Translations under genes and position numbers: made by a program
Origin: an uncultured Geobacter sp.
Lineage (GTDB): Bacteria > Desulfobacterota > Desulfuromonadia > Geobacterales > DSM-12255
DNA: 45,309 nt
Reading direction: 5' to 3'
Assembly: GCA_937871715.1 (NCBI GenBank)
Contig: CALMOE010000263.1
Coordinates: 1 to 45,309, forward strand
In this document: in pieces, positions 12,838 to 45,307 of the stretch
How the letters are laid out: every line of letters starts with the position of its first letter
Position numbering within the stretch: the first letter of the stretch is position 1
The notes under the pieces: model-generated
Seen by the model: the letters and a program-made list of their open reading frames with translations, nothing else
Told to the model about the DNA's origin: nothing
The model's database searches: none

Positions 12838-12862
12838 AATGAAATTACCTCCCACTCAGCAG

Positions 12863-16630: not shown

Positions 16631-16642
16631 TACAGGACCAAT

Positions 16643-16656: not shown

Positions 16657-16778
16657 AAATCGTGGCGCCAAGCAATACATTGTTTCCAAACAACGTTTAC
16701 AGCCAGCCAGAATCTACTAACCACCAATGCCGGGCACGATTTTTCCGCATCGACACACACCGGCCAGCAACGCAAATA

Positions 16779-16863: not shown

Positions 16864-16879
16864 TGGCACACCTTGTGCT
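16864..16879 (+). promoter_or_regulatory. Sigma-54 (-24/-12) promoter of the liv-gabD-gdh operon
   Basis: TGGCACA-CCTT-GTGCT matches the consensus TGGCACR-N4-TTGCW at all but one position. It has the invariant GG (16865-16866) and GC (16877-16878) with 10 bp between them. The start site should fall near 16890, about 105 nt before livK. A dedicated sigma-54 activator is encoded immediately upstream. Confidence 0.8.
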
Positions 16880-18239: not shown

Positions 18240-18249
18240 TCCAAAACCA

Positions 18250-18287
18250 CCCCCTCAGTCCCCCCTTGCCAGGTGGGACTGAGGGGG
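18250..18287 (+). terminator. Intercistronic hairpin after livK
   Basis: CCCCCTCAGTCCC (18250-18262) is perfectly complementary to GGGACTGAGGGGG (18275-18287), with a 12-nt loop. No T-run follows, so it is unlikely to be a full terminator. Between a binding-protein gene and its permease genes such a hairpin typically stabilises the upstream message or causes partial termination, raising the ratio of binding protein to membrane components. Confidence 0.6.
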
Positions 18288-18319
18288 ATCGTACTAAAAG
18301 CCTTTGCCGGAGGAACACC

Positions 18320-19204: not shown

Positions 19205-19205
19205 C

Positions 19206-20192: not shown

Positions 20193-20194
20193 CG

Positions 20195-20920
20195 ATGACA
20201 GCACCTCTTTTGCAAGTTGACGGTGTGACCAAATGCTTCGGGGGACTTACCGCGGTTAACAACGTCTCCTTCCAGGTCCAGGAGGGGGAGATCGTCGGCC
20301 TATTGGGTCCGAACGGCGCCGGCAAGACGACCCTGTTCAACGTCATCAGCGGATTCTATGCGCCAACCAAGGGAAACATCCTCTTCAAGGGGAGCGACAT
20401 CAGCGGCAAGCAGCCCTACGACCTGGCGGAAAAGGGGATCGGCCGGACCTTCCAGGTAGTCAAGCCGTTTGCCGGCCTGTCGGTGCTTGAGAACGTGGTG
20501 ATCGCCTCGTTTCTCCGCTACCCCAAACGTGGGGATGCGGAGAAACATGCCTGGCGGATCCTGGAGGTAACCGGCCTGGCGGACCGTGCCCACGTCTCCG
20601 CCGCCGGACTCACCCTGGCGGGGCGAAAGCGCCTGGAGATCGGCAAGGCCCTGGCCCTGGAGCCCTCCTTCCTCCTTCTTGACGAGGTGGTGGCAGGCCT
20701 GAACCCAACGGAGGCCGACCGTACCGTAGAACTGATCCTCAGGCTCAAGGAGCAGGGGATCACCATACTGATCGTGGAGCACATCATGCGGGTCATCATG
20801 AGCATCAGCGACCGCCTGGTAGTGCTGAATTTCGGGGAGAAGATAGCCGAGGGGGCCCCAGCGGACGTGGCCCGGGACCCGCTGGTTATCGAAGCCTATC
20901 TGGGAGAGGCAGCGGCATGA
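20195..20920 (+). CDS. livG: ABC transporter ATP-binding protein (LivG family)
   Basis: A 241-residue ATPase. Walker A is GPNGAGKTT near residue 40. The signature is the diverged LTLAGRKRLEIGKALAL, where LAGRK stands in place of LSGGQ, and Walker B is FLLLDEVVAGLNP. The switch histidine is in IVEHIMRVIM. The ATG at 20195 has AGGAGGGGG upstream. The gene overlaps livF by 4 bp (ATGA). With LivF it powers the permease pair. The glutamate next to Walker B is present, so it should be catalytically active despite the altered signature. Confidence 0.92.
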   Translation: MTAPLLQVDGVTKCFGGLTAVNNVSFQVQEGEIVGLLGPNGAGKTTLFNVISGFYAPTKGNILFKGSDISGKQPYDLAEKGIGRTFQVVKPFAGLSVLENVVIASFLRYPKRGDAEKHAWRILEVTGLADRAHVSAAGLTLAGRKRLEIGKALALEPSFLLLDEVVAGLNPTEADRTVELILRLKEQGITILIVEHIMRVIMSISDRLVVLNFGEKIAEGAPADVARDPLVIEAYLGEAAA

Positions 20921-21627
20921 AAATACTCGACGTTTCATCAATATCGGTAAAGTACGGCGACATCCAGGCGCTGTGGGACATCTCCTTCTCGGTGAGCAAG
21001 GGGCAGCTGGTGGCGCTGATCGGCGCCAACGGCGCCGGCAAGACGACCACCCTCAAGGCGATCTGCGGCCTGGTGGGGCTTGAGGCGGGGAAGATAGAGT
21101 ACGACGGCAAGGTCACCAGCGGCATGCCGGTTCACAAGGTGGTGGACCTGGGGATCACCCTGGTGCCGGAGGGGCGGCAGCTCTTCCCGAAGATGACGGT
21201 CGAGGAGAACCTGCTGGTGGGCGCCTACCTGAAGCGGGCCCAGGGGAAGAGGGCCCAGACCCTGAAGAAGGTCTACGAGATTTTCCCGAGGCTGGAGGAG
21301 CGGCGCTCCCAGACCGCCGAGACACTCTCCGGCGGGGAGCAGCAGATGGTGGCCATAGGCCGGGCCCTGATGCAGGACCCACAGGTGATCATGTTCGACG
21401 AGCCGAGCCTTGGGCTGGCGCCCATCATGGTGCGGGAGGTGTTCAACGTCATCCAGGAGCTGCACGGCCTGGGGCTGACCATCTTCCTGGTGGAGCAGAA
21501 CGTCCACCAGACCCTGAAGGTTGCCGACTACTGCTACGTCATGGAGAACGGCCGGATCGTCGGCCAGGGGACAGGGGCAGAGCTTGAGGCGGACCAGAGC
21601 ATACGCGAGGCCTACCTGGGGCTATAG
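20917..21627 (+). CDS. livF: ABC transporter ATP-binding protein (LivF family)
   Basis: This 236-residue ATPase is the second nucleotide-binding subunit. Walker A is GANGAGKTT near residue 37, the intact signature is LSGGEQQMVAIGRALM, Walker B is VIMFDEPSLGLAP and the switch histidine is present as EQNVHQT. The gene starts inside the last codons of livG. A gap of 43 bp with no terminator leads to gabD, so transport and catabolic genes are probably on one transcript. Confidence 0.93.
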   Translation: MKILDVSSISVKYGDIQALWDISFSVSKGQLVALIGANGAGKTTTLKAICGLVGLEAGKIEYDGKVTSGMPVHKVVDLGITLVPEGRQLFPKMTVEENLLVGAYLKRAQGKRAQTLKKVYEIFPRLEERRSQTAETLSGGEQQMVAIGRALMQDPQVIMFDEPSLGLAPIMVREVFNVIQELHGLGLTIFLVEQNVHQTLKVADYCYVMENGRIVGQGTGAELEADQSIREAYLGL

Positions 21628-21670: not shown

Positions 21671-23125
21671 ATGTTCACCTTGAAAGACCCAACCCTTTTC
21701 CGCCAGCAGTGCTTCATCGACGGCCAGTGGCTCTCGGCCGAGAGCGGCGCGACCATCGACGTCACCAACCCGGCCACCGGCGAAAATATCGGCGCCATCC
21801 CCAGGATGGGGGTCGAGGAGACCCGCATGGCAATCGGGGCGGCCAATGCCGCCTGGCCGGCCTGGCGGGTGAAGACCGCCGCAGAGCGCGGAGCTATTCT
21901 GCGCCGCTGGTTTGAGCTGATGCTGGAAAACCAGGAGGATCTGGCCCTGCTCATGACCGCCGAACAGGGGAAGCCACTTGGCGAATCCCGTTGGGAGATA
22001 ACCTATGCCGCCTCCTTCCTTGAGTGGTTCGCCGAAGAGGGGAAGAGGGCCTACGGCGACACCATCCCCCAGCACCAGCCTGACAAGCGAATAGTGGTGA
22101 CCAAAGAGCCGATCGGCGTCTGTGCTGCCATAACCCCCTGGAACTTCCCCTCGGCCATGATCACCAGGAAGGCCGGGCCGGCACTGGCCGCCGGCTGCAC
22201 CATGGTTGTCAAGCCGGCCACCCAGACACCCTACTCGGCACTGGCCCTGGCGGAACTGGCCCGGCGGGCGGGGGTCCCTGCCGGTGTTTTCAATGTGGTC
22301 ACCGGCTCATCCACGGCCATCGGCGGGGAGATGACCTCAAACCCCATCATCCGCAAGCTCACCTTTACCGGCTCCACCGAGATCGGCAAGCTCCTCATGG
22401 CGCAATGCGCCGCAACGGTGAAGAAGCTGGCCCTGGAGCTGGGTGGGAATGCCCCCTTCATCGTCTTCGAAGATGCCGACCTGGACGCGGCTGTGGAGGG
22501 GGCGATGGTCTCCAAGTACCGCAACACCGGCCAGACCTGTGTCTGCACCAACCGGATTCTGGTGCATGAAAAAGTCTACGACGCCTTTGCCGCTAAACTA
22601 GTACAGGCTGTTAACGGGCTAAAGGTAGGCAACGGCCTAGAGGGGGAGACACAGCAGGGACCCCTCATCGACATGGGGGCAATGGAAAAGGTAGAGGAGC
22701 ATATTGCCGACGCGGTAGCCAAGGGGGCCAGAATCCTCGCCGGAGGGAAGAGGCACGAACTGGGTGGGAGCTTCTTCCAGCCGACCGTCCTGGCGGATGT
22801 CACCCCGCGGATGGCGGTAGCCAGGGAAGAGACCTTCGGACCACTAGCCCCACTCTTCCGCTTCACCACCGACGAGGAGGCTATCCGGATGGCCAATGAC
22901 ACCGAATTCGGCCTCGCAGCCTACTTCTACAGCCGGGATATCGGCCGGGTCTGGCGGGTCGCCGAGGCACTGGAGTACGGCATCGTCGGCATCAACACCG
23001 GCCTCATCTCCACGTCGGTCGCCCCATTCGGCGGGGTGAAGGAGTCTGGATTCGGCCGTGAAGGGTCCAAATACGGCATCGATGACTTCCTGGAGATAAA
23101 ATACCTCTGTATGGGCGGCATCTAG
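21671..23125 (+). CDS. gabD: Succinate-semialdehyde dehydrogenase (aldehyde dehydrogenase superfamily)
   Basis: A 484-residue NAD(P)-dependent aldehyde dehydrogenase closely resembling GabD, which oxidises succinate semialdehyde to succinate. Visible elements: the cofactor-binding stretch FTGSTEIGKLL, the general-base glutamate in LELGGNAPF, and the catalytic cysteine in NTGQTCVCTNRI near residue 285; the cysteine two residues later resembles the pair seen in redox-regulated GabD enzymes. An APFGGVKESGFGREGS tail is typical of the GabD group. AGGAG precedes the ATG, and the following gdh starts 10 bp after the stop. The tungsten-type oxidoreductase across the activator gene may oxidise the same aldehyde with ferredoxin instead of NAD(P). 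Confidence 0.88.
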   Translation: MFTLKDPTLFRQQCFIDGQWLSAESGATIDVTNPATGENIGAIPRMGVEETRMAIGAANAAWPAWRVKTAAERGAILRRWFELMLENQEDLALLMTAEQGKPLGESRWEITYAASFLEWFAEEGKRAYGDTIPQHQPDKRIVVTKEPIGVCAAITPWNFPSAMITRKAGPALAAGCTMVVKPATQTPYSALALAELARRAGVPAGVFNVVTGSSTAIGGEMTSNPIIRKLTFTGSTEIGKLLMAQCAATVKKLALELGGNAPFIVFEDADLDAAVEGAMVSKYRNTGQTCVCTNRILVHEKVYDAFAAKLVQAVNGLKVGNGLEGETQQGPLIDMGAMEKVEEHIADAVAKGARILAGGKRHELGGSFFQPTVLADVTPRMAVAREETFGPLAPLFRFTTDEEAIRMANDTEFGLAAYFYSRDIGRVWRVAEALEYGIVGINTGLISTSVAPFGGVKESGFGREGSKYGIDDFLEIKYLCMGGI

Positions 23126-23135: not shown

Positions 23136-26129
23136 ATGCACTACCCAATGGAATGCGATCTCTACGAAAAAGTGGGAACTGAATTGGCCTCCATCGGCGG
23201 CCGCGCCGTGGAGAATCTCGGCTGGCTAGGGGAGCAGATGGACCCCTACTTCGCCGTCACCATGCAGGCCGAGGTCGCGGCGGTCACCAATCTGGCAGCA
23301 GGCATGCACACCCTTGGGGAGAACCAGCGTCTGCTGCTGGCCGACCGGGAGAAGACCCTGATCATCGCCCGCCTCAACTCTGCCGGCTCCCTCTACGAGA
23401 CCCTGAGGAGCCTGGAGGAGCGGGAGATCTCCTACGCCGAGTTCACCCACTCCGCAACGCCGCTCCCGGGGCTCTCCCAAGGGCTGGAGGTGCAACGTTT
23501 CGATTTCGAACGCAAGGGGCACGGGGAGATCGCCAGGGCAACGGCAACCGTCCCAGCCGACATAACCGGGAGGATCGCCGCCAGCCTGGAGAGCCACTAC
23601 CCGCAGTTCGACAATGGCGAACTGGAGAGGCTCCTGGGGATCCTCTGGCTGAACAACGAGCGCTATGTCCGCCTCTCCCCCCCCAAGCGGGTGGCCCAAC
23701 TCCTCTGGCTCTACCAGCAGTCCAACCGCCAGGGGGGGGTCTACCTGGATGCGGAGGAGGGGGACGACCTGGCAGCGAGGGGTGAGATCAGGGTGATGTT
23801 TGCCGTCGGCAACCCGCCACAGAAGGATTTCCTCATCCAGACCATGGAGATCTTCAACCGCCTCGGTCTGGGGGTCAACCGGGCCTACTGCCTCACCATC
23901 TCCAACGGGGTCCACCCCTACTTCCTCGGCACCTTCTACGTCCGCAAGAGGGGGCCGGGGGAGCTGACCAAGGGGTCGGAGCTCTTCGCAAGACTGCGGA
24001 TGGAGCTGTACAACTCCCAGATCCTCTCCACCGCCTCCCCCGCCTACCGTGATTTCGTCACCAGGGGGATCATGAGCGGCGAGGAGGGGTCCCTGGTGAA
24101 CGCCTTCATCTCCTTCTGCCACACCAACCTGGCCCACCATCACCCGGACCCCTTCGGCTACGAGGATGTGATGCGGGCATTCCACTCCCACCCCGACATT
24201 GCCCTGCAACTGGTGAGGCTCTTCCGCCACCGCTTCGATCCAGGGGTGGCCAACCGGGAGCCCCTCTACCGGCAAACCCTTGAGGAGACTGCCCGCTTCA
24301 TCGGCGAATACAACACCGGGCACCGCTACATCGACGACATCCGGCGGACGATCTTCAGGTGCTGCATCACCTTCATCCAGCACACCCTGAAGACCAACTT
24401 CTTCGTGGCGGAGAAGCACGCCCTGGCCTTTCGCCTCGATCCGGCCTACCTGGCGGAGCTCAACCCGGAGTACACCGCCGACCTCCCCAAGGAGACACCC
24501 TTCAGGATAACCTTCTTCTTCGGCCGCTACGGCGCCGGCTACCACATCGGCTTCTCCGACATCGCTCGCGGCGGCTGGCGCACCATCATCAGCGGCAACC
24601 GGGACGACTACGTCACCTGCGCCGGCACCCTCTTCCGGGAGAACTACGTCCTGGCCCACACCCAGCACCTGAAGAACAAGGACATCTACGAGGGTGGCTC
24701 CAAGATGGTGGTGCTGCTGGACGCCGCCGGCGTGGAGGACCGGGAGCTGGTCACCCAGCGGCTCTACAAGCTCCAGTTCGGCATGATCAGCGCATTCCTC
24801 GACATATTCATCACGGAAAACGGCAGGGCGCGGGATCCTCGGGTGGTGGACTACTACGGGGAGGACGAGCCGATCGAACTGGGTCCCGACGAGAACATGC
24901 ACGACGCCATGATCGAGACCATCGCCCGTCTCTCCGTCAAGCGCGGCTACATGCTCGGCAACGGCATCATGTCCAGCAAGAGGGTCGGCATCAACCACAA
25001 GGAGTATGGGGTCACCTCCACCGGGGTGGTGAAGTTCGCCGAAATCACCATGGCGGAGCTGGGGATCGACATCCTTAAGGAGCCGTTCACGGTCAAGTTC
25101 ACCGGCGGCCCCAACGGCGATGTGGCCGGCAACGCCATGCGGATCATGCTGGATCGCTCCCCGCAGATGAGGATCAAGCTGATCCTGGACGGCACCGGCG
25201 CCATCTTCGACTCAGAGGGGATCGATCATGGAGAGCTGAAACGGATCGTCCTCAGCGAGGACCTGGACGCCTTCGACCCGTCACGACTCCACCCAGGGGG
25301 GTTCATCCTCTACCGCCGCCAGCAGCGGACCGAGGGGCTGCGTGAGCTGTACAAGCGGGTGGTCTGCATCGATTCCGGCCCAGAAGAGCAGTGGGTCACC
25401 ATGGATGAATTCCACCGTGAGTTCAGCAGCCTGATCTTTTCGGTCCCAACCGACCTGTTCATCCCGGCCGGCGGCCGGCCGGAGACCATAGACAAAGACA
25501 ACTGGCAGCGGTTCTTCCGCGAAGACGGAAGCCCGACCACCCGGGCGATCGTGGAAGGTGCCAACTCGTTCATCACTCCAGAGGCGCGACGCCGGATGCA
25601 GGAGCGGGGGGTGGTCATCATGCGCGACGCCTCGGCCAACAAGTGCGGGGTGATCTCCTCCTCCTACGAGATCATCGCCAACCTCCTCCTGAGCGATGCC
25701 GAGTTCCTGGCCGACAAGGAGCGCTATGTGGCCGACGTCCTGCAGATCCTGGAAAAGAGGGCCGAGGACGAGGCCAGCCTCATCTTCCGCCGCAGGCGGG
25801 AACCCGGCTGCACCCTTCTCTGCACCGAGATATCCGAGGGGATCAGCATCGAGATCAATGCCCACTACGCCCGGCTGTTCAACTTCTTCCAGCGCAGGCC
25901 GGAGCTCTGCGCAGAGCCTCCATTCCGCGAGGCGATCCTGGCTCACCTGCCGCGCCTGCTGCGGGAAAATCCCCTTTACCGGGAGCGGGTCGGGGCACTG
26001 CCGGCAAAGTACCGCTTCGCCATCCTCGCCGCGGAGATCGGCTCGTCCCTGGTCTACTGCGGCGACCGGGAAGCGGACTTCGAGGAGATGCTCAAAGGGC
26101 ACCTGAGTAGAAAGATGGCTTTGCAATAA
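23136..26129 (+). CDS. gdh: NAD-specific glutamate dehydrogenase, large (~110 kDa) type
   Basis: A 997-residue oxidative glutamate dehydrogenase that returns glutamate to 2-oxoglutarate and ammonium. The catalytic half has GFSDIARGGWRTIISG, the substrate-binding region around KNKDIYEGGSKMVVLLD (near residue 510), the nucleotide fold FTGGPNGDVAGNAMR and VEGANSFITPEARR. The first ~400 residues are a regulatory extension typical of large GDHs. It is shorter than the ~1600-residue class (Bac_GDH) and roughly the size of the 115-kDa class. It starts with TAGGAGAG overlapping the gabD stop. In this operon it would regenerate the 2-oxoglutarate consumed by GabT. The last ~36 codons are repeated, with mostly silent changes, at 31940-32047. 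Confidence 0.9.
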   Translation: MHYPMECDLYEKVGTELASIGGRAVENLGWLGEQMDPYFAVTMQAEVAAVTNLAAGMHTLGENQRLLLADREKTLIIARLNSAGSLYETLRSLEEREISYAEFTHSATPLPGLSQGLEVQRFDFERKGHGEIARATATVPADITGRIAASLESHYPQFDNGELERLLGILWLNNERYVRLSPPKRVAQLLWLYQQSNRQGGVYLDAEEGDDLAARGEIRVMFAVGNPPQKDFLIQTMEIFNRLGLGVNRAYCLTISNGVHPYFLGTFYVRKRGPGELTKGSELFARLRMELYNSQILSTASPAYRDFVTRGIMSGEEGSLVNAFISFCHTNLAHHHPDPFGYEDVMRAFHSHPDIALQLVRLFRHRFDPGVANREPLYRQTLEETARFIGEYNTGHRYIDDIRRTIFRCCITFIQHTLKTNFFVAEKHALAFRLDPAYLAELNPEYTADLPKETPFRITFFFGRYGAGYHIGFSDIARGGWRTIISGNRDDYVTCAGTLFRENYVLAHTQHLKNKDIYEGGSKMVVLLDAAGVEDRELVTQRLYKLQFGMISAFLDIFITENGRARDPRVVDYYGEDEPIELGPDENMHDAMIETIARLSVKRGYMLGNGIMSSKRVGINHKEYGVTSTGVVKFAEITMAELGIDILKEPFTVKFTGGPNGDVAGNAMRIMLDRSPQMRIKLILDGTGAIFDSEGIDHGELKRIVLSEDLDAFDPSRLHPGGFILYRRQQRTEGLRELYKRVVCIDSGPEEQWVTMDEFHREFSSLIFSVPTDLFIPAGGRPETIDKDNWQRFFREDGSPTTRAIVEGANSFITPEARRRMQERGVVIMRDASANKCGVISSSYEIIANLLLSDAEFLADKERYVADVLQILEKRAEDEASLIFRRRREPGCTLLCTEISEGISIEINAHYARLFNFFQRRPELCAEPPFREAILAHLPRLLRENPLYRERVGALPAKYRFAILAAEIGSSLVYCGDREADFEEMLKGHLSRKMALQ

Positions 26130-36267: not shown

Positions 36268-36376
36268 TAAACTATCAATAACGGCTTTTTAAATTGCCCT
36301 CTACCATTTCATGCTACAATCACTCAACCCTGCTGCACAGAGGCAGAGTCAAATCCATTCGAACAGGGTAGCCGCC

Positions 36377-38152
36377 ATGTCACTGCACCACAAGCACCAG
36401 TTACTGGGCAACGCCTCCACCTACACTAAAAAGCATTTTTCCGAGGAATTCTACCAGTCCCTGATGAACTCCATGGACGTGTCGCTGCTGGTGGTCAACA
36501 ACACCGGCATGACCATTCTTGCCAACAGGGTTGCCCGCAAGAACTTCAGGGCCTACCCTGGCATCCACCTGAACGACGCGATCCCGGACCTCTGGACCAA
36601 GATAGCGCAAAGACTGCAGGGAGCCCCCCTCACCCTTGAAATTTCCGTGCGGGGCGGAGAGGCCAGCTACGTGGGAAGAATCAGCCCCATGGCTCTCGAA
36701 AATCGAGAGATCGGGGCCGTCTGTTTTTTCATTGAGAACTCCGGACCGGAATCAATGGCCATGCAAATGCGGATCTTTCAGGAGATGACCAGGGAATTGG
36801 ACGCCATCATCAACTCCTCATCGGTTGCACTCTGGATCTGCGACGGAGAAGCCAACGTGCTGCGGATGAACCCTGCCTCGGAGCGGCTCAACAAGATCGA
36901 AGCGGCCGACTATGTCGGCCGCAACATGCAAGAACTGGTTGAGGAGGGGTTTATCGACAAATCGGTCACCCTGGACGTCATCAAGACCGGAACCGTGACG
37001 AACCTCATTCAACACCGCCTGGATCGCACGCTGATCGTCACGGGGACCCCCGTTTTTGATGGGGCGGGAAGGCTTATCCGGGTGGTGATAAGCGAGCGGG
37101 ACGTGAGCGAAATCGACAACCTGCAGCGGGAACTTGCGGAGCAGGAGTCGATGAAGGACCAACTTCGCAATCAGATGCTGGAGATGCAGCAGATGGAGCT
37201 TGTTTCGCGCCAGGTCATCGCAAAAAGCCTATGCATGTTGAAGGCGCTGCATCAGGCCCTCAAGGTGAGTTCCGTTGACTCATCGGTGCTGATCCTCGGC
37301 GAGTCCGGCGTGGGAAAAGGGTTGTTCGCAGACCTGATCCATAAACACTCGAAGCGCGCGGAACATCCGCTGATCAAGATCAACTGCGGCGCCATCCCCG
37401 AAGCCCTGATCGAATCGGAGCTGTTTGGCTATGACAAGGGGGCCTTTACCGGCGCCCAGTCCGCCGGCAAACCGGGGTATTTTGAGATGGCAGACGGCGG
37501 CACCCTGTTCCTTGACGAGATCGCGGAACTGCCGCTCCCCTCGCAGGTGAAGCTGTTGCGTTTCCTGGAAGATGGACGCATCACCCGTCTCGGCGGGACA
37601 AAGAGTCGCAACGTTGATGTCCGCATCCTTGCAGCAACCCACCGGAATCTCGAGAAGATGGTCGAAGAGAAGAAATTCAGGCTCGACCTCTATTACCGGC
37701 TAAAAGTCATCCCGATCCAGGTCCCGGCAGTCAGGGAGCGAAGGGACTGCATTCTCCCCCTCATCCAACACTACATCAACCACTTCGGCGAAAAGAGCGG
37801 CAGCAAAAAGCGCCTTACGCGTGCCGCATCCGACGCCTTGCTGACCTACCCCTTCCCGGGCAACGTACGGGAACTGATGAATGTCTGCGAGCGCCTGGTG
37901 GTCATGTCGGAAACCGAACTGATTGACCTCCAGGACCTTCCGAGCGAGATTGTCGAACGGGCAGATGCACCCGTTCCCTCCCTGGCAACTCCTTCGGACG
38001 GAATGACCCTGCAACAGATCCTGGATAACGTGGAAAAGCAGGTACTCACACAAGCAATGGCGCGATACGGCAATCAGTACAGGGCAGCGGAATCCCTTGG
38101 CCTGAGCCAGCCCACAGTGAACAGGAGACTGAAGAAATTCGGCATGAATTAG
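36377..38152 (+). CDS. PAS-PAS sigma-54-dependent transcriptional activator (second paralog)
   Basis: A 591-residue enhancer-binding protein matching the activator at 14849-16630 domain for domain: two PAS-like domains, linker, AAA+ domain (GESGVGKG near 308, GAFTGA near 355, GGTLFLDEIAELPL, PGNVREL) and a Fis-type helix-turn-helix (MARYGNQYRAAESLGLSQPT). The central domain is nearly identical to its paralog, while the PAS domains and recognition helix (LSQPTVNRRL versus INQSTVARKM) differ, as expected for a new signal and site. The ATG at 36377 is preferred because it matches the paralog's length; the frame to 36311 has no ribosome site. It probably drives the hyuA promoter about 360 bp downstream of its stop codon. 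Confidence 0.93.
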   Translation: MSLHHKHQLLGNASTYTKKHFSEEFYQSLMNSMDVSLLVVNNTGMTILANRVARKNFRAYPGIHLNDAIPDLWTKIAQRLQGAPLTLEISVRGGEASYVGRISPMALENREIGAVCFFIENSGPESMAMQMRIFQEMTRELDAIINSSSVALWICDGEANVLRMNPASERLNKIEAADYVGRNMQELVEEGFIDKSVTLDVIKTGTVTNLIQHRLDRTLIVTGTPVFDGAGRLIRVVISERDVSEIDNLQRELAEQESMKDQLRNQMLEMQQMELVSRQVIAKSLCMLKALHQALKVSSVDSSVLILGESGVGKGLFADLIHKHSKRAEHPLIKINCGAIPEALIESELFGYDKGAFTGAQSAGKPGYFEMADGGTLFLDEIAELPLPSQVKLLRFLEDGRITRLGGTKSRNVDVRILAATHRNLEKMVEEKKFRLDLYYRLKVIPIQVPAVRERRDCILPLIQHYINHFGEKSGSKKRLTRAASDALLTYPFPGNVRELMNVCERLVVMSETELIDLQDLPSEIVERADAPVPSLATPSDGMTLQQILDNVEKQVLTQAMARYGNQYRAAESLGLSQPTVNRRLKKFGMN

Positions 38153-38212
38153 CAGGTCATCCGGACGGCTCGCCCTGGACCATGACGCCACGGGAACGGG
38201 TGAGCTGACTAG

Positions 38213-38226
38213 ATTCAACAATGAAT
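38213..38226. promoter_or_regulatory. Candidate enhancer site of the second activator (ATTCA-N4-TGAAT)
   Basis: ATTCA-ACAA-TGAAT is a perfect 5-4-5 inverted repeat (arms extend to GATTCA/TGAATC). It lies about 325 bp upstream of the predicted hyuA start site and has the same half-sites as 36254-36267. The remainder of the 500-bp gap to hyuA contains the -24/-12 promoter and the leader but no gene that I can support. Confidence 0.5.
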
Positions 38227-38512
38227 CGACGGACCGCCCCTCCCCCCGAAAACCCGCAAAACAATGTCTTATTTTTTTAGCGCCAATAAAATGCCGCCCG
38301 GAAAACCTGCGGACGACAACACGACTTGACACAAAACATCATCACCGTCACCACATGACTCCCCCCTATCATTCGCCCCCTCGCAAATAAAAGCAATAGC
38401 CATGTCGCCCCAAGCAACAGCTAACAGCCTGAATACAAACCACATTTAATCCCAACACCCCGCCTCGACCATCAGGCAGCTTGAGCAACACCCTTAATGG
38501 ACCGCTACCTCT

Positions 38513-38528
38513 TGGCATGCAAGCTGCA
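38513..38528 (+). promoter_or_regulatory. Sigma-54 (-24/-12) promoter of hyuA-hyuB
   Basis: TGGCATG-CAAG-CTGCA fits TGGCACR-N4-TTGCW with two mismatches, keeping GG (38514-38515) and GC (38526-38527) exactly 10 bp apart. Transcription would begin near 38539, about 115 nt before hyuA. A sigma-54 activator gene lies immediately upstream. Confidence 0.7.
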
Positions 38529-38652: not shown

Positions 38653-40698
38653 ATGAAGTATCGCATCGCAATTGACACGGGAGGAACCAACACCGATGCC
38701 TTTATCTTCAACGAAGAGACCCGCACCTCGTTTGTTGCCAAAGTCCCTTCAACACCCAAAAACCCGGCCATTGCCATTACCGACGCCATCAAGGCGGCAG
38801 GACTAAAGGCATCGGAAATCAAGCTGATTACCCACGGCACGACGGTAGCCACCAATGCCCTGATCGAACGTAATTTCCCGAAGACGGCCATGATTACCAC
38901 GGCCGGCTTCCGTGACGTGGTGGAGATCTGCGACGGCACCAAGGAAGAGCTGTGGGACGCCTACGTGGACAAGCCATCATCCTACATCCGCCGCCGTGAC
39001 CGCTTCGAGGTGAGCGAACGGATCGATTTCAACGGCAACGTCATCACCCCCCTCGACCGGGACCAGGCGCGCAGCCTGGCCGAAAAGATTGCCAAGCTTG
39101 GTTACCAGGCAGTCTGTATCTGCTTTATCAACTCTTATGTGAATGCAGACCACGAGCAGTCGATGAAAAGCATTCTCGAGGATTACATGCCGGACAGCAC
39201 ATTTATCTGTACCTCGAGCGAGACCATTCCCGAGATGTTCGAACACCCCCGTTTCAGTACCGCCATGATCAGTGCCGTTCTCGGGCCATGCATCGTCAAC
39301 TATATCCATGACCTCGATAGCCGACTGAAGGAGATGGGGTACAAGGGTGACCTGCTGATCCTTCATTCCGGTGGAGGGGTGCTGACCGCAAAAGGAACAC
39401 GCAAATACCCGGCGCGTCTGGCCAGTTCCGGCATCGTGGCCGGCGCCATTGCCGGAGCTCATATTGCAAAGCAGGCCGGCTTCCAGAACGCCATCAGCTT
39501 TGACATGGGTGGGACGAGCACCGATGTGGCACTTACCTATAAGGGTGAGCTGAAAACCGCCAACAGCTGGCAGGTTGAGTATGGCTACCCGATCATGTTC
39601 CCCAGCGTCGAAGTGCTTACCATTGGTGCCGGCGGAGGGAGCATTGCGTGGATCGATGCGGGCGGTTCGCTGCGCAACGGCCCGCAGAGTGCCGGCTCGG
39701 ATCCGGGGCCTGCCTGCTACGGCAGGGGGGGGGATGAGGCAACCAATACCGATGCCAACCTTGTTCTGGGGCGCCTGAGCAGTTCCCTGCTCGGGGGGCG
39801 TCTGCAACTCGATGTCAAGGCTTCGAAGCAGGTCATCAACGACAAGGTTGTCAAGCCCCTCAACATGGAACTCGCTGCTGCTGCCAGTGCCATGCTGAAG
39901 GTGGCCGAGGCCAACATGGCCAATGCCATCCGTTTGATTTCGGTCGGCCGCGGTTATGATCCGCGCGACTTTGCCCTGGTCGCCTTCGGTGGTGCCGGCC
40001 CGCTCCACGGAGCCTACCTTGCCCAGGAACTGGAGATCCCAACGGTCATCTTCCCCCGTTACCCCGGCATCGCCTCCGCCATGGGGTGCCTGCTGGTGGA
40101 TATCCGCCACGATTCCAGCCTGATGTATCTCGGCAAGACACAGGATGCCAACCTGATTCAATTGGCGCACAGCTTCGAGTCCATGGAGGAAGAGGCCAGG
40201 GACCATCTGGTTGAGGAGGGTGTGCCGCCCGAGAACATGCGCTTTATCCGCCAGATCGACATGCGCTATGTGGGTCAGTGGCGAACCCTGACCGTACCTG
40301 TGGACCTGTCAAATCCTGAAAGCACCCTTCAGGAGGCGCTGAAAAAATTCCATGCCGAACATGAACGATCCTACTCCTACAGTGACCCCTCCCGTGAGGT
40401 CGAGATCTTCGCACTCAAGCTGGTGACCCAGGGGATCATCCCCAAGCCGACCATGCCCAAGGTGCGGGAGACCGGTGATGCCGAGAGCGCCTTGACCGGC
40501 AGTCGGCAGGTCTATTTTGACGAGGCGGGGGGATTTGTCGAGACGCCGATCTACAACCGGGACAAGCTGCTCCCCGGTGCGCGCATCCAGGGTCCGGCAG
40601 TGGTGGAGCAGCTGGATTCGACGGTTGTCCTGCCACCCGAAACAGCGAGTGTCGTCGACCCTTACCTGAATATCATTACCAACTTTACACGGGCTTGA
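38653..40698 (+). CDS. hyuA: Hydantoinase/oxoprolinase family protein, subunit A
   Basis: A 681-residue HyuA-type subunit of an ATP-dependent amidohydrolase or related carboxylase. The ASKHA-fold ATP site is clear: IAIDTGGTNTDAF at the start, ITHGTTVATNALIER near 57, SFDMGGTSTDVAL near 285 and AFGGAGPLHG near 450. The family motif GPQSAGSDPGPACYGRGG is near 340. The family includes N-methylhydantoinase, 5-oxoprolinase and the acetone/acetophenone carboxylases. No acetone carboxylase gamma subunit is present, and an NCS1 permease follows, so a cyclic amide or ureide such as hydantoin is favoured. AAGGAG precedes the ATG at 38653; upstream in-frame codons lie in the leader. The gene ends 14 bp before hyuB. 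Confidence 0.85.
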   Translation: MKYRIAIDTGGTNTDAFIFNEETRTSFVAKVPSTPKNPAIAITDAIKAAGLKASEIKLITHGTTVATNALIERNFPKTAMITTAGFRDVVEICDGTKEELWDAYVDKPSSYIRRRDRFEVSERIDFNGNVITPLDRDQARSLAEKIAKLGYQAVCICFINSYVNADHEQSMKSILEDYMPDSTFICTSSETIPEMFEHPRFSTAMISAVLGPCIVNYIHDLDSRLKEMGYKGDLLILHSGGGVLTAKGTRKYPARLASSGIVAGAIAGAHIAKQAGFQNAISFDMGGTSTDVALTYKGELKTANSWQVEYGYPIMFPSVEVLTIGAGGGSIAWIDAGGSLRNGPQSAGSDPGPACYGRGGDEATNTDANLVLGRLSSSLLGGRLQLDVKASKQVINDKVVKPLNMELAAAASAMLKVAEANMANAIRLISVGRGYDPRDFALVAFGGAGPLHGAYLAQELEIPTVIFPRYPGIASAMGCLLVDIRHDSSLMYLGKTQDANLIQLAHSFESMEEEARDHLVEEGVPPENMRFIRQIDMRYVGQWRTLTVPVDLSNPESTLQEALKKFHAEHERSYSYSDPSREVEIFALKLVTQGIIPKPTMPKVRETGDAESALTGSRQVYFDEAGGFVETPIYNRDKLLPGARIQGPAVVEQLDSTVVLPPETASVVDPYLNIITNFTRA

Positions 40699-40712
40699 AA
40701 GGAGAACTCATC

Positions 40713-42704
40713 ATGAAGAGCACCGAGCAACAACAATTCAAGCAGGATGCACCGGCCAAGCTTGATCCGATTACCTTTGAGGTACTCAAAAACGCTTTCA
40801 TCAACCTGGTGGACCAGATGTCGGAGCAGTTGCTCCGCACCTGCTACTCGTTCGTCATCTACAGCCGCGATTTCAGTAACTGCATTTGCGACCGCCATGG
40901 CAATACCGTTGCCCAAGGGACCCAGGATATCGCCGTGCATGTCGGCACCCTTCATTTCAGCGTGAAATCGGTTATCGCGCAGTATGGAGACGATATTCAG
41001 CCCGGAGACATCTTCATCACCAATGACCCATACAACGGCGGCACCCACTTCAATGACGTCCGGATCATCCGCCCCATTTTTTACGACGATGAACTGGTAG
41101 CGTTCACCCAGTCCAACGGCCACTGGGCAGATATCGGCGGAAGCGTCCCCGGTTCGTTCGATATCACCGCCAAGGAACATTTCGGTGAGGGGCTGCGGAT
41201 AACGCCGGTTAAAATATGGAAGGCCGGGGTGTTCCAGGAAGATGTTGCCAGGATGATGGTTTCCAACATGCGGGCGCCCGACGACTCCCTCGGCGATCTC
41301 CGCGCCCAGTCAGAAGCCACGCTGTGCGGCGCCCGGCGTCTGCTATCCCTTATGGATAAATACGGCAAGGAGACGATTCTGCTGGCATTTGAAGAGGTCC
41401 AGAACTATGTCGAACGCTATGCCCGCGGCCAGTTGAAGAGTCTGCCCAAGGGGACATGGAGCGCAACGGACTTCATTGACCAGGACCCTTCAAAAGAGGA
41501 AGGGCTGATCCCGATCAAGGTCAGCATGACCATTGAGGATGACCGGGTATTCTACGACTTTACCGGCACCCACCCCTCCATCGGCTGCTTCCTGAACTCG
41601 ACCTACAGCGCCTCCTTCTCCGGGGTCGTAGCAGGCACCAAGACCTTCTTCCCGGAACTGCCGCTCAATTCCGGCTTCTACCGAATCATCGACGTGCATT
41701 TTCCTGAAGGGAGCGTCGTCAACGCCCCCTGGCCGGTAGCGGTCGCCGGCTACTGCTCGGGAAGCTATGAAAAAATCATGAACGCCATCTTCGCCCTATG
41801 GTCGAATATCATCCCGGAGCGGGCGCTGGCCTGCTCGTTCAACCTGGAGTACCTGCTGGTCGGCGGCTGGGACGGGCGGGATCAGGCAAACCGGCGCTAT
41901 TTCATGAATTATGACTGGATGGCCGGCGGATGGGGGGGGCGCAACGGAAGGGACGGCTCCAATGCCACCTCGCCCGTCTTTGGGGTCGGTCTGGCCATTC
42001 AATCGGTAGAGGCCCAGGAAAGGCTGAGTCCGGTGCTGACCAGTGAGCACCAGATCGAAACCGACTCCGGCGGTCCCGGCAAGCATCGCGGTGGCTGCGG
42101 TGTCCGCCGGGGCGGGCAGCTGACCAAGGTAGAAAAGGCCGTCATGTCGTACTGCTGCGACCGTTCCCGTTCCGTCACCTGGGGCATCTGGGGGGGGTTG
42201 CCGTCCCGCCCCCACGGGGTTTCGCTGCTTCGTCAAGGCGCCGATCAGCCGGAGTATCTCGGCGCGGTCTTCTCCAACGTACCGGTGAAGGAAGGGGATC
42301 TCTTCAGTCGCCCCTCCTCCGGGGGTGGAGGGCTGGGTGATCCGCTCGAACGGCCATCGCAGGCCGTGCTTGACGATGTGCTTGACGGCTACGTGAGCGT
42401 GGCAAGGGCCCGCAGCGATTACGGCGTGGTGATTGTCGCCATAAACCCCGAACTCAATGAATACGCCGTTGACCATGAGGCGACCGACAAGGCAAGGGCG
42501 GCTATCCGAGAGGTTCGTGACGGAATGCTGGAAACCGATCCCCTTGTTGTCGCCGCCAAGTACCAGGCGGGAGAGATCGACACCCTCGATGTGATTCGCC
42601 ACTATGGGGTCATCTGTGACTGGAACGACAGGACACTCCTGCCCAAAACGACCAGCCAGTTCCGCGAGGCTCTTCAGGCAAGACGAAAACCACCCAAGAT
42701 GTAA
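40713..42704 (+). CDS. hyuB: Hydantoinase/oxoprolinase family protein, subunit B
   Basis: This 663-residue HyuB-type partner of HyuA is somewhat longer than typical (~520-600) because of a C-terminal extension from about residue 560. Family marks are DPITFEVLKNAFINLVDQMS at the start, FITNDPYNGGTHFNDV with likely metal ligands near 105, HWADIGGSVPGS near 135, and GGPGKHRGGCGVRRG near 455. GGAG sits 9 bp before the ATG at 40713. The two subunits probably form one complex in the cytoplasm. The true substrate is unproven: hydantoins, oxoproline or another cyclic amide are candidates. Confidence 0.85.
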   Translation: MKSTEQQQFKQDAPAKLDPITFEVLKNAFINLVDQMSEQLLRTCYSFVIYSRDFSNCICDRHGNTVAQGTQDIAVHVGTLHFSVKSVIAQYGDDIQPGDIFITNDPYNGGTHFNDVRIIRPIFYDDELVAFTQSNGHWADIGGSVPGSFDITAKEHFGEGLRITPVKIWKAGVFQEDVARMMVSNMRAPDDSLGDLRAQSEATLCGARRLLSLMDKYGKETILLAFEEVQNYVERYARGQLKSLPKGTWSATDFIDQDPSKEEGLIPIKVSMTIEDDRVFYDFTGTHPSIGCFLNSTYSASFSGVVAGTKTFFPELPLNSGFYRIIDVHFPEGSVVNAPWPVAVAGYCSGSYEKIMNAIFALWSNIIPERALACSFNLEYLLVGGWDGRDQANRRYFMNYDWMAGGWGGRNGRDGSNATSPVFGVGLAIQSVEAQERLSPVLTSEHQIETDSGGPGKHRGGCGVRRGGQLTKVEKAVMSYCCDRSRSVTWGIWGGLPSRPHGVSLLRQGADQPEYLGAVFSNVPVKEGDLFSRPSSGGGGLGDPLERPSQAVLDDVLDGYVSVARARSDYGVVIVAINPELNEYAVDHEATDKARAAIREVRDGMLETDPLVVAAKYQAGEIDTLDVIRHYGVICDWNDRTLLPKTTSQFREALQARRKPPKM

Positions 42705-42745
42705 CCACTCCCCTTCCGCAAACCGCTTGCAGCAATCAAGGGCAA

Positions 42746-42793
42746 TGGGCATTCAAATCGATCAGTTACGACAACTATTGATTTGAATGCCCA
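42746..42793. repeat. 14-bp inverted repeat between hyuB and the permease gene
   Basis: TGGGCATTCAAATC (42746-42759) and GATTTGAATGCCCA (42780-42793) are perfect inverted copies around a 20-nt loop, which itself can form AGTT/AACT. There is no T-run, so it is a weak terminator candidate, or a processing or protein-binding site. It contains the ATTCA and TGAAT half-sites of the second activator, but not at the 4-bp spacing. The rest of 42705-42972 shows no gene. Confidence 0.5.
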
Positions 42794-42972
42794 GGCGACA
42801 CACTATCCTTGCGCCTTATTCCGGACAGGTTGAAATCAAGAAGTCCGTTACAGACCTCAACTGAAGCAACGGGACATGGCCGGTGAAATCTAAGGCAACA
42901 GAGAGGAGTGAAGGAAATTACGCTGAACAGTTGTGGGGCAGTCAAAAACGTTCGTTAATCAAGGAGGATGTC

Positions 42973-44328
42973 ATGGCTCAAAAAATTACAGAAGTTAGTG
43001 AAGCCGCATTGGATTATTCATGCAACCCGGTACCGGAAAGTGGGCGAATGTCCCCATTTGGCCTCACCATGGCGTGGTGGAGTTGCTGCAGCGCCATGTT
43101 TTACGTGGTAGTTGCCGCCACCCTTGCGGCAGGGTTCGGCACGGTCAACACGCTCATCGGCATCGGCCTTTCGGTTGTCACCTATGCGGCGGTAAACGCG
43201 GTCATCAGTCGCTACGCCATCCGTACCGGCTCCTCTGTGGCGATGTTCTCGCGCATCCTCTTCGGCAGGTCGGGCGCCGCCCTTGCCACGCTGATCTTTG
43301 CGGCGACAGCGGTCTACTATGCCGTGTTTGAAGGTTCGGTCATGGCCCTGGCAGCGACCTTTCTCTTTACCGGTTTAAGCTACAAGGTTGCGGCCCTGAT
43401 CGTTGTCCTCTACAGCGTGCCGCTTGTTTTCGGGAGCGTCCAGAACTGGCTCGACAAGTTCAACGGCGTCCTGTTACCCATCTACCTCCTGGGTCTCTCG
43501 GCCTGCGTAGGCTTGGCCATCAGCAAGTACGGTTACAGCAATGCATGGCTGACGGCAGTACCCAAAGGGGGCGCACCGGCAATGGGGTGGTGGCAGGTAT
43601 ATGTGGCCTACATGGGGGTCTGGATTCTCATGATGTACGTCTTCGATTACGCCCGCTTCGGCAAGAAAGCCGATGAGGTCTATCACTCTAAGTTCAACTT
43701 CGGCGCACCGTTCTTCATCGTCTCATTCCTGGTTGGCGGACTGGCAGGCATCTTCCTGGTGCAGACCATTCCGATCGAAGGCGCCCTTTCCGAGGTATCG
43801 GCTGTCAAAGCGATCATCATGATGATGGGCGGCTTCGGGCTGCTGTTCGTCTGGGCAACGCAAACCCGCATCAACACGGCCAACTTCTATCTGGCCACGG
43901 TCAACTTCGAAACGCTGGGTAAACTGACCATGGGGCGGCACCTGTCAAAATATTTCTGGGCAATCATGGTCGGCGCGATTGTCTATGCACTGATGCTCAT
44001 GGATGTCTTCAGCTACCTGCTCAAGGCCCTTGCCTACCAGGGGATCTTCGTGGTGGCCTGGGTGGCCATTGCCCTGGCCTACATGCTGAAGGATGCGAAA
44101 AACGAGCATCCCGAAGAAGCCTCCAAGGGTGACAGCGAATACCCGGCCTACAATTCGCGCGGACTGACCGCCTGGTTCGGGTCGGTGATCCTCGGCATAG
44201 TAATGATGAATATCCCGGCTGCAGCGTCCTTCTCTTCACCATGCAGCGCCATTGCCGGATTTGTCCTCTATCTGGCGCTAAGACCCAACGAGAATGACGT
44301 CCCTGTTACGGTATTGAACCAGGAATAG
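42973..44328 (+). CDS. NCS1-family cytosine/hydantoin-type permease
   Basis: A 451-residue inner-membrane symporter with about twelve hydrophobic segments, typical of nucleobase:cation symporter-1 proteins (CodB, Mhp1, allantoin carriers). The first helix follows MSPFGLTMAWWSCCSAMFYV and the second carries LAAGFGTVNTLIGIGL. GTGSSVAMF-type conserved glycines (RTGSSVAMFSRILFGRSGAA) precede helix 3, and the FDYARFGKK loop is near residue 225. AAGGAGG precedes the ATG at 42973. It follows hyuB by 268 bp, so it may have its own promoter or share the operon past the inverted repeat. It presumably brings in the HyuAB substrate. Confidence 0.88.
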   Translation: MAQKITEVSEAALDYSCNPVPESGRMSPFGLTMAWWSCCSAMFYVVVAATLAAGFGTVNTLIGIGLSVVTYAAVNAVISRYAIRTGSSVAMFSRILFGRSGAALATLIFAATAVYYAVFEGSVMALAATFLFTGLSYKVAALIVVLYSVPLVFGSVQNWLDKFNGVLLPIYLLGLSACVGLAISKYGYSNAWLTAVPKGGAPAMGWWQVYVAYMGVWILMMYVFDYARFGKKADEVYHSKFNFGAPFFIVSFLVGGLAGIFLVQTIPIEGALSEVSAVKAIIMMMGGFGLLFVWATQTRINTANFYLATVNFETLGKLTMGRHLSKYFWAIMVGAIVYALMLMDVFSYLLKALAYQGIFVVAWVAIALAYMLKDAKNEHPEEASKGDSEYPAYNSRGLTAWFGSVILGIVMMNIPAAASFSSPCSAIAGFVLYLALRPNENDVPVTVLNQE

Positions 44329-44421
44329 CCGGCCTGCGACGGCATGCTGTCAAGGGCAGGTAAAGCAAATGGCGTTTCGACCCCGATCAGCATAATTGAT
44401 GAAAAACTACGTCCCACAGCG

Positions 44422-44493
44422 TTGCAACAACCACCTTTGTTTCAGTCATTTCTGATGCCGGGGCTTTCATTCTGGTGGAGATGAAATTACCGG
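44422..44493 (+). ncRNA. Candidate structured leader RNA (kissing hairpins), copy B, upstream of the Tsx-like gene
   Basis: This 72-nt element is homologous to 27016-27087. Hairpin 1 (44422-44445) has AACAA pairing with TTGTT around the loop CCACCT, supported by outer TG/CA pairs. Hairpin 2 (44458-44493) has CCGG...CCGG and TTTCA...TGAAA around the 12-nt loop TTCTGGTGGAGA. Loop-loop complementarity CCACC (44431-44435) with GGTGG (44474-44478) is kept. Stem positions that are C-G in copy A are U-A here. It ends 28 nt before the ATG and about 17 nt before AGGAG. The downstream protein is unrelated to the porin, so the element is shared by regulation, not by gene duplication. Confidence 0.6.
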
Positions 44494-44521
44494 ACGGACA
44501 TATCACGATGAGGAGAGAGAA

Positions 44522-45307
44522 ATGAAAAAATATTTTCTGAGATCCGGATTATGGAGTTTTACTTTCTGGTGCATGATCAGTTCATTGTTGCTTGTGAGCG
44601 GTCCAAGTCATGCAGAAGAGTTTTCATCGACTGACCTGCAAGTTCTCTACACCCCTTTTTTGGACCGGGATGATCCGGATCTGGGTAACGGCATCTTCAC
44701 CGACAGCAACAGGCTTACCGCTGTCAGGCTTGAGCACTTCGGGACGTGGGAATACGGGGATAATTTCTTTTGCACCGACCTGACCGAGGGGAACGAGGTC
44801 GGGGGCAAAGGCTCGGGTTCATTTGGTGGCGATACGGAATCACATCTTTTTCTCGTCTACGTCCCCAGGCTCAGCATCACAAAGCTTGCGAATACCCCCC
44901 TCAAAGGTTTCGTCAAGGACGTTTACCTTGCTGGACGTTTGGAGCGAGCGAGTTACGGCAGCTACATGGCGGAAAACCTCGGCATATCATTCGATCTGAA
45001 GATCCCGGGTACAGCCTTCTTCGAACAGGACTTTTACGCCCGCAACACTAATTACGACAAGGGGGTTGAATTCCTTTCCAGAACCGTCTGGTTGGCACCG
45101 TTTTCAGCCGGTCCGGTGGGTATGCACTTCGATGGTCTCGCATTGGTCAAGACAACCGATAACGGCGTCAATGCATTCACCCAACTTGACCTTTTGGCAG
45201 ATGTCTTCAACAAAGGACGGCTTCAGGCAGGTGTCCGACTGGAGTCTGCTTATTACAAGGATTACGAGAGAAATACGCCATACTTCATGCTGAAGTGGGT
45301 ATTCTGA
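44522..45307 (+). CDS. Tsx-like outer-membrane channel protein
   Basis: A complete 261-residue protein; the TGA stop is at 45305-45307, just inside the window. The signal peptide spans about residues 1-33, ending PSHAEE. The mature protein begins with FSSTDLQVLYTPFLD, has RLEHFGTWEYGDNFFCTDL near residue 65 and ends in a beta strand with terminal Phe (YFMLKWVF). These features fit the Tsx/nucleoside-channel family of 12-stranded outer-membrane channels. With the NCS1 permease it would form an outer-to-inner path for a nucleobase- or hydantoin-like compound. AGGAG lies 6-7 bp before the ATG, and the leader carries the shared 72-nt RNA element. Confidence 0.8.
   Translation: MKKYFLRSGLWSFTFWCMISSLLLVSGPSHAEEFSSTDLQVLYTPFLDRDDPDLGNGIFTDSNRLTAVRLEHFGTWEYGDNFFCTDLTEGNEVGGKGSGSFGGDTESHLFLVYVPRLSITKLANTPLKGFVKDVYLAGRLERASYGSYMAENLGISFDLKIPGTAFFEQDFYARNTNYDKGVEFLSRTVWLAPFSAGPVGMHFDGLALVKTTDNGVNAFTQLDLLADVFNKGRLQAGVRLESAYYKDYERNTPYFMLKWVF

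Follow-up and report, generated by a model that had tools for sequence, protein, structure and literature searches.

The right end of a 45,309-nucleotide stretch of DNA from an uncultured Geobacter sp. (the window; contig C263 of a 3.43-Mb, 304-contig genome that shares its family with Geobacter argillaceus) carries five genes in the same direction, encoding a sigma-54 activator that we call REG, HyuA, HyuB, an NCS1-type permease, and a Tsx-like protein. On balance, our comparisons favor a role of this cassette in the uptake and ATP-dependent opening of a small, unstrained lactam, with 2-pyrrolidone (gamma-butyrolactam) as the likeliest substrate. We consider it probable that a lactam, delta-valerolactam included, is opened to an omega-amino acid, while we propose 2-pyrrolidone itself as the substrate only tentatively. 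The original prediction had placed the four hyuA-to-Tsx-like genes consecutively behind a sigma-54 activator, an arrangement that open reading frames (ORFs) and family profiles confirmed, with the permease and Tsx labels being distant ones. Its interpretation, that the cassette handles a specific cyclic nitrogen compound, is partly supported: a cassette for one such compound is supported, but a hydantoin-type substrate is not, since the neighbors fit a lactam and no TIGR01879 carbamoylase was found over the cut-off in the carriers. We thus describe a separately switched cassette for lactam uptake and ring opening in which the substrate, the direction of transport, and the carriage of lactam by the Tsx-like and NCS1 proteins are predicted. 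Its features are as follows.

36311..38152, + strand: REG, PAS/AAA+/Fis-HTH sigma-54 activator (Pfam Sigma54_activat 229.3 bits, PAS_4, HTH_8)
38212..38227, + strand: presumed REG-binding palindrome, GATTCAACAATGAATC (exact-pattern genome scans; kept in 4/4 promoters)
38512..38528, + strand: sigma-54 -24/-12 promoter, TTGGCATGCAAGCTGCA (conserved in 4/4 orthologous promoters)
38653..40698, + strand: HyuA, ATPase subunit (Pfam Hydantoinase_A, Hydant_A_N, Hydant_A_C)
40713..42704 (ATG start), + strand: HyuB, presumed metal-dependent ring-opening subunit (Pfam Hydantoinase_B)
42747..42792, + strand: conserved hairpin between hyuB and the permease gene (fold z-scores, genome scans)
42973..44328 (ATG start), + strand: NCS1-type permease, presumed lactam importer (PF02133)
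44522..45307, + strand: Tsx-like protein, presumed outer-membrane channel, distant (family profile to Tsx, 1tlw)

The start of hyuA was set at 38653, where the ribosome site and the conservation among the four orthologs begin, within an ORF that opens at 38584. Gaps of 14, 268, and 193 bases follow hyuA, hyuB, and the permease gene, respectively; a consensus scan listed no sigma-70-like promoter in 42600-45309, and the window has no Rfam match. The contig end at 45309 shares a 55-base overlap with contig C1, whose ORFs of at least 130 residues belong to other genes and add no more of the cassette type.

Lactam-opening enzymes beside relatives of the permease

The strongest ground for a lactam comes from the company that the permease subgroup keeps. 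Among 32 plasmid records, the nearest relatives of the window permease are 58 to 60% identical to it, and several of them are annotated as allantoin permeases; the permease adjoining HyuAB in Halomonas is 51% identical. HyuB-HyuA genes directly precede the permease relative in four of the five neighborhoods read (Shinella, two Paracoccus, and Roseateles), and in Phyllobacterium (60% identity) it is directly preceded by PxpA, two acetyl-CoA-carboxylase-like (AccB/C-like) genes, PxpB, and PxpC. The Roseateles relative adjoins both HyuBA and Pxp genes. All three HyuA proteins scanned beside permease relatives (L161 to L163) scored above the CapA equivalog cut-off of 1000 bits (1236, 1223, and 1219), as did HyuB of L161 against CapB (1095 bits, cut-off 1000). 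The subgroup therefore accompanies two unrelated kinds of lactam-opening enzyme, which favors a lactam over a hydantoin. The permease itself is a weak NCS1 protein (PF02133, 30.6 bits with a cut-off of 23.5); its profile matched 7qoa at E 0.016 and the Mhp1 hydantoin permease only at E 2, and an AlphaFold model from six sequences had a low pLDDT of 36.3.

Neighbors of the HyuA clade

In a FastTree phylogeny, the window HyuA belongs to a single branch (support 1.0) of 40 members, namely, 37 loci that we counted, the window, and L171 and L172. They come from Geobacter relatives, Bacillota, Pseudomonadota, Actinomycetota, a Chloroflexi metagenome-assembled genome (MAG), and archaea. The counted set combines 28 loci found by HyuA similarity with 10 plasmid loci, picked from 40 of 1005 matching records before their neighbors were seen, minus L071, which duplicates L047. 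As controls we used 52 other HyuA loci (35-43% identity) from the window's phylum, mostly from the top of the matches listed. NCS1 permeases, class-III aminotransferases, and aldehyde dehydrogenases were counted within 8 kb of HyuA and Pxp genes anywhere in the locus.

The comparison of HyuA neighborhoods, which the original prediction had proposed as a check, showed that NCS1 genes do accompany HyuAB in this clade, at 8 of 37 loci versus 0 of 52 controls (Fisher p 0.0006). Class-III aminotransferases were found at 13 of 37 versus 1 of 52 loci (p 3e-5), and aldehyde dehydrogenases and Pxp genes each at 6 of 37 versus 0 of 52 (p 0.004 for both), where the p values disregard relatedness beyond the merging at 70% described next; with the duplicate L071 included, the aminotransferase and aldehyde dehydrogenase counts become 14 and 7. 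When loci were merged at 70% HyuA identity, the clade and control clusters with each marker numbered 4/11 versus 0/32 (NCS1), 7/11 versus 1/32 (class-III aminotransferase), 4/11 versus 0/32 (aldehyde dehydrogenase), and 6/11 versus 0/32 (Pxp), although large clusters have more chances to contain a marker and many controls have short flanks. At least one of the four markers was present at 22/37 clade loci and in 11/11 clusters, versus 1/52 and 1/32 for the controls. The aminotransferase, aldehyde dehydrogenase, and Pxp neighbors fit the conversion of a lactam to an amino acid. Liv genes and sigma-54 activators were not enriched beside the clade (3/37 versus 2/52 and 6/37 versus 5/52, respectively) and are thus not used as an argument.

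Three layouts point to a GABA (4-aminobutyrate) route. A Halomonas plasmid encodes a cytosine permease, HyuA, HyuB, an HTH regulator, a succinate-semialdehyde dehydrogenase (SSADH; over the TIGR01780 cut-off), and an aminotransferase. A Rhodococcus plasmid encodes a glutamate dehydrogenase (GDH), GabT, an aldehyde dehydrogenase, two regulators, HyuA, and HyuB. In a Thermincola MAG, HyuAB is accompanied by an NCS1 permease, a sigma-54 activator, a GDH-like ORF (identified by eye), GabT, and AOR.

Several clade loci hold further genes. In Bacillota, HyuA-HyuB fusions of about 1400 residues adjoin the separate HyuAB of the clade (L041 69-4277, L050 2179-6390, and L040 2-958, the last cut by the contig end), placing two different ring openers side by side; the best solved match of the L041 fusion is N-methylhydantoinase (774 bits). 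On a Rhizobium tumorigenes plasmid (L070 14143-17817), a xanthine-dehydrogenase-like hydroxylase of three subunits comes after HyuAB and may produce the lactam from an N-heterocycle. In Natronorubrum (L071 13140-17244) and Ensifer (L075 14031-15842), a GNAT acetyltransferase and a class-III aminotransferase come after HyuAB, perhaps representing another downstream route.

The gab/Liv island

Upstream of the cassette, the window holds an island of GABA-related and Liv genes with a paralogous activator, which the original prediction had left unremarked together with the operator palindrome and the hyuB-permease hairpin.

11146..12855, - strand: aldehyde ferredoxin oxidoreductase, presumed role (Pfam AFOR_N, AFOR_C)
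13198..14568, - strand: GabT, 4-aminobutyrate transaminase (TIGR00700 551.6 bits, cut-off 506.65)
14762..16630, + strand: REG1, paralogous sigma-54 activator (69.3% identity to REG over 570 residues; Pfam)
16642..16657, + strand: presumed REG1 operator, TATGCAGCAGCGCATA (TATGCA-N4-TGCATA-like palindrome, 4/4 livK upstream regions)
16864..16879, + strand: livK sigma-54 promoter, TGGCACACCTTGTGCT (kept in 4/4)
16995..21627, + strand: LivKHMGF ABC transporter (Peripla_BP_6 for LivK; the other four by eye)
21671..23125, + strand: GabD, succinate-semialdehyde dehydrogenase (NF008415 867 bits, cut-off 828; TIGR01780 752.6, cut-off 646.35)
23136..26129, + strand: large NAD-glutamate dehydrogenase (Bac_GDH_CD, ELFV_dehydrog)

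The order gabT, REG1, LivKHMGF is kept in 4/4 carriers of the cassette (the window and L086-L088), and in MAG STC_69 the gab/Liv genes share a contig with HyuAB. Of the four livK upstream regions, two have a perfect TATGCA-N4-TGCATA palindrome; the window's copy deviates from it, and that of L088 deviates further. Together with the Halomonas, Rhodococcus, and Thermincola layouts, GabT, GabD, and the paralogous activator point to GABA as the product and hence to 2-pyrrolidone as the substrate. GabT at 70% identity or above is present in 4/4 carriers and also in 18/95 other relatives; the GABA route is thus more widespread than the cassette. Near the island lies a porin-like protein (by eye; 27031-28494) without a Pfam match.

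HyuA and HyuB

The N, A, and C domains of HyuA matched Pfam at 168.5, 283.7, and 77.3 bits, and HyuB matched Hydantoinase_B at 534.8 bits; Hydantoinase_A, Hydant_A_N, and Hydantoinase_B all exceeded their cut-offs. Against the NCBIfam caprolactamase equivalogs (cut-off 1000), HyuA reached 539.4 bits on CapA and HyuB 331.2 on CapB; the window HyuAB is thus no CapAB caprolactamase equivalog. The closest solved chain to HyuA is the N-methylhydantoinase 7hk5 (477 bits), but HyuA and HyuB are two separate genes, unlike the single fused A-B chain of the 7hk5 type.

By HMMER alignment, the CapB metal ligands D41, H99, D102, and H124 correspond to D53, H112, D115, and H137 of HyuB, a tetrad kept in 35/35 clade members compared. 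The pocket comparison covered the 35/37 clade and 42/52 control loci with a long enough HyuB alignment. Eight positions (Y50, F149, L378, L381, W402, F423, G424, and Y480) are invariant in 35/35 clade proteins and variable in the 42 controls, which suggests one substrate class for the clade. Some of these residues are larger than in CapB (Y50, L378, and W402) and may suit a small ring, although MAFFT and HMMER place some CapB pocket residues differently, so that single substitutions relative to CapB are uncertain while the invariance within the clade is unaffected.

Carriers of the cassette and the Tsx-like protein

The order REG-HyuA-HyuB-NCS1-Tsx also occurs, in different surroundings, in G. 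argillaceus (L038) and Geobacter sp. UBA698 (L039). In STC_69 (L037), a glutamate dehydrogenase ORF comes after REG-HyuA-HyuB-NCS1, and the Tsx-like gene is missing. Between these cassettes and the window, HyuA, HyuB, and the permease are 87-95% identical and REG is 72-77% identical. In the STC_69 assembly HyuB lies in two frames (L037 11043-13052), reflecting either an assembly error or a broken gene. Around L038 and L039 we identified, by eye, acyl-CoA, CoA-transferase, and electron-transfer genes, which we set aside because they vary from carrier to carrier. A close HyuA was found only in genomes G000 and G005 (the latter with match coordinates equal to those of G. argillaceus L038) among 97 genomes, the next best being 41% identical, and in a 398-genome sample around G101 a clade-level HyuA (56-59%) was found in three genomes, G101 included, with the next best at 44%.

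The Tsx-like protein has no Pfam match at E 10 and does not match PF03502 (Channel_Tsx). The profile of its 15-member family, however, reaches Tsx (1tlw) at E 7e-4, and Channel_Tsx is matched by 13/15 family members, the window's not among them. Its N terminus is signal-peptide-like by eye, and an AlphaFold model from three sequences had a low pLDDT of 31.7. The pairing of such a channel with a hydantoinase-type enzyme, to which the original prediction had drawn attention, is real in 3/4 Geobacter cassettes (the window, L038, and L039, but not L037), whereas no other clade locus examined has the gene and the Tsx label remains a distant one. Distant relatives (30-36%) occur in 16 other genomes, all without a close HyuA, so the link to HyuAB is seen in Geobacter only.

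Control of the hyuA promoter

That hyuA lies behind a sigma-54 promoter, as originally predicted, is borne out by conservation of the -24/-12 element in 4/4 orthologous promoters. We base the promoter on this conservation, not on the pattern match, because one-mismatch matches occur at chance level (3 in the window versus 3.45 expected from shuffles). REG contains a visible GAFTGA motif, and its best NCBIfam match is of the PrdR type. A palindrome, GATTCA-N4-TGAATC, sits 268-300 bases upstream of the -24/-12 element and is likewise kept in 4/4. Whole-genome searches for the exact pattern located it once in each of G000, G005, and G097 and twice in G099; in all four carrier genomes one place is above hyuA. 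REG thus appears to be the activator of one promoter, in keeping with the suggestion that the cassette has its own activator: it looks dedicated and would switch the hyuA promoter alone or nearly so. Binding of REG to the palindrome is predicted, as is a ligand sensed by REG.

Each of the four carrier genomes has the hyuB-permease hairpin at a single place, with fold z-scores of -4.85 to -5.98 in 4/4. An intrinsic terminator was rejected, since no T-run follows the hairpin and a terminator scan does not list it. Because of the missing T-run, an RNA-processing or stability element is more likely.

A proposed route and what weighs against it

Considering these data, we propose the following model. 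The Tsx-like channel would pass the lactam across the outer membrane, and the NCS1 permease would carry it inward. HyuA would then activate the lactam with ATP, and HyuB, with its bound metal, would open the ring to an omega-amino acid (GABA), which GabT, GabD, and the NAD-glutamate dehydrogenase of the upstream island would turn into succinate and ammonium. Control would lie with REG, which is paralogous to the gab/Liv activator, has a different presumed operator, and would act on this promoter alone or nearly so.

There are several points that weigh against this model. No neighbor gene names the lactam. None of the four markers is present at 15/37 clade loci, 13 of them haloarchaeal, and of the uncounted clade loci L171 and L172, neither of which has NCS1, L171 has no marker. 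As the controls come from one phylum and are often short-flanked, the contrast in neighbors may be partly taxonomic. The aldehyde dehydrogenases are mixed, being SSADH in Halomonas, of an unnamed kind in Rhodococcus, and annotated as a methylmalonate-semialdehyde-type enzyme in Natronorubrum, with two more loci alike; this diversity has lowered our confidence slightly, leaving a modest preference. The only marker of the L042 cluster is the aldehyde-dehydrogenase part of a 1159-residue ORF (5364-8843) directly after HyuAB, which is probably PutA. In G. argillaceus and UBA698, gabT lies on a contig other than that of HyuAB. Furthermore, two transporters may be more than the neutral 2-pyrrolidone requires, whereas 5-oxoproline would need them. 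Finally, the characterized OplAB is reported to have only trace activity on gamma-butyrolactam (PMC11033972).

Alternative substrates

The alternative that survives best, while still unlikely in our judgment, is 5-oxoproline (pyroglutamate), which the NCS1 permease would import and HyuAB, as an ATP-dependent 5-oxoprolinase, would open to glutamate for the NAD-glutamate dehydrogenase. This charged compound would need transporters. Permease relatives adjoin Pxp genes in Phyllobacterium and, along with HyuBA, in Roseateles; Pxp genes accompany 6/37 clade loci, and the uncounted L172 has PxpB and PxpC as its only markers, plus an activator. The GDH ORF after the permease in L037 and the PutA-like ORF in L042 would fit as well. 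Within the Geobacter family, Pxp and the cassette co-occur: PxpA is found in three of the four carriers (G000, G005, and G099) and in 0/11 cassette-free members, four of which are 78-81% complete. The same genes also argue the other way. In those three carriers, separate loci (L174 in G000:C85, L175 in G005:C9, and L176 in G099:C1) already unite Pxp genes, a large GDH that shares 65-66% identity with that of the window, and a pair of membrane proteins. This pair, assigned by Pfam to DUF969 and DUF979 in L174 and similar by eye in L175 and L176, is a candidate 5-oxoproline transporter. HyuAB would therefore be unnecessary for 5-oxoproline there. PxpA was not matched in G097, the fourth carrier, and glutamate would need neither aminotransferase nor SSADH.

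Somewhat less probable is a larger lactam, delta-valerolactam or epsilon-caprolactam, opened to 5-aminovalerate or 6-aminohexanoate and processed by GabT/GabD-type enzymes, a proposal that overlaps the broad form of our own; delta-valerolactam is possible because the same enzymes could take 5-aminovalerate. Permease relatives adjoin HyuA genes above the CapA cut-off, and Paracoccus ferrooxidans combines gabT, a CoA transferase, an acyl-CoA dehydrogenase, HyuBA, and the permease, the layout expected for conversion of 5-aminovalerate to glutarate. CapAB and OplAB are described as acting on delta-valerolactam or caprolactam (PMC8453981, PMC11879879, and PMC11033972). The window HyuA and HyuB, however, score well short of the CapA and CapB cut-offs, no glutarate genes were seen among the ORFs inspected by eye beside the Geobacter cassettes, and the bulkier Y50, L378, and W402, invariant in 35/35, may suit a smaller ring, albeit in a region of uncertain alignment.

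A true hydantoinase, importing hydantoin, N-methylhydantoin, or dihydrouracil through a permease like Mhp1 and yielding an N-carbamoyl amino acid, appears improbable. The nearest solved HyuA chain is indeed N-methylhydantoinase, Mhp1 is an NCS1 hydantoin permease, if matched by our profile only at E 2, and a Zn-dependent hydrolase lies with the methylmalonate-semialdehyde dehydrogenase near the Natronorubrum locus. No carbamoylase of TIGR01879, the one such family searched, scored over the cut-off in G000, G005, G097, or G099; G000 and G099 gave weak matches. The fused protein of Thermincola, nearer to N-methylhydantoinase (774 bits) and 36% identical to the window HyuA, adjoins HyuAB, and a hydantoinase would leave the GABA-type neighbors unexplained.

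The weakest alternative, opening of N-methylpyrrolidone or an oxidized form of it by HyuAB as in nmpABCDEF, is about as improbable. The nmpA/nmpB genes of that system, called N-methylhydantoin amidohydrolase, are described as followed by an amino-acid oxidase and SSADH, with loss of degradation upon nmpB deletion (PMC12866759). No amino-acid oxidase is present among the cassette ORFs (the rest of the genome was not searched), and O2 for such an enzyme would be missing in an anaerobe.

Returning to 2-pyrrolidone, a broader and more speculative proposal is that the HyuAB clade is a dedicated ATP-dependent gamma-lactam hydrolase, the missing 2-pyrrolidone enzyme, partly served by an NCS1 subfamily that carries lactams instead of nucleobases, and that Geobacter has built from it an envelope-to-tricarboxylic acid cycle module by means of a duplicated gab activator with a new operator. 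To our knowledge, few enzymes are known for small ring-shaped amides. In the open-licence literature searched, we saw neither a lactam pathway described for Geobacter nor a hydantoinase paired with Tsx. If true, our proposal would suggest lactam use by a Geobacter relative, and work on lactam and N-methylpyrrolidone waste would benefit from the gamma-lactam clade, the candidate lactam permease, and the regulator, which seems to act on a single promoter and may be a lactam sensor.

Comparison with known systems

The closest parallel is CapAB/OplBA of Pseudomonas, which likewise has two separate HyuA/HyuB-family subunits with the same metal ligands and gab-like companions; relatives of the window permease adjoin CapBA-type genes. 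In P. jessenii, the caprolactamase genes are described in a gab-like cluster with an omega-aminotransferase and an aldehyde dehydrogenase (PMC6061476), and the mechanism of the enzyme is treated in PMC8453981. The window differs in its HyuA, which is only 35-37% identical to those of four CapBA-type loci, in scores of 539/331 bits versus 1000, in its A-B instead of B-A order, and in its other pocket residues, sigma-54 control, and Tsx-like partner. The nmpABCDEF system of Alicycliphilus and Paracoccus, where NmpAB and SSADH are reported to degrade N-methylpyrrolidone (PMC12866759), likewise leads from ring opening of the HyuAB type to succinic semialdehyde and SSADH, but uses an amino-acid oxidase where the window has GabT.

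PxpABC 5-oxoprolinase resembles the cassette in its ATP-driven lactam opening and in having its own transporter and regulator, and it sometimes adjoins the HyuAB clade; its enzyme family is unrelated to HyuAB, and 3/4 carriers have both. Uptake of 5-oxoproline has been described for NRAMP-like PxpT and TRAP systems (PMC13274462). The 7hk5 N-methylhydantoinase with Mhp1 shares the HyuA/HyuB and NCS1 families with the window but is a fused single chain, and the carriers of the window cassette lack a TIGR01879 carbamoylase over the cut-off. REG, in turn, has the PAS, AAA+, and Fis-HTH layout common to PrdR-type PAS sigma-54 activators, from which it is set apart by a score of 408 bits, below the cut-off of 795.

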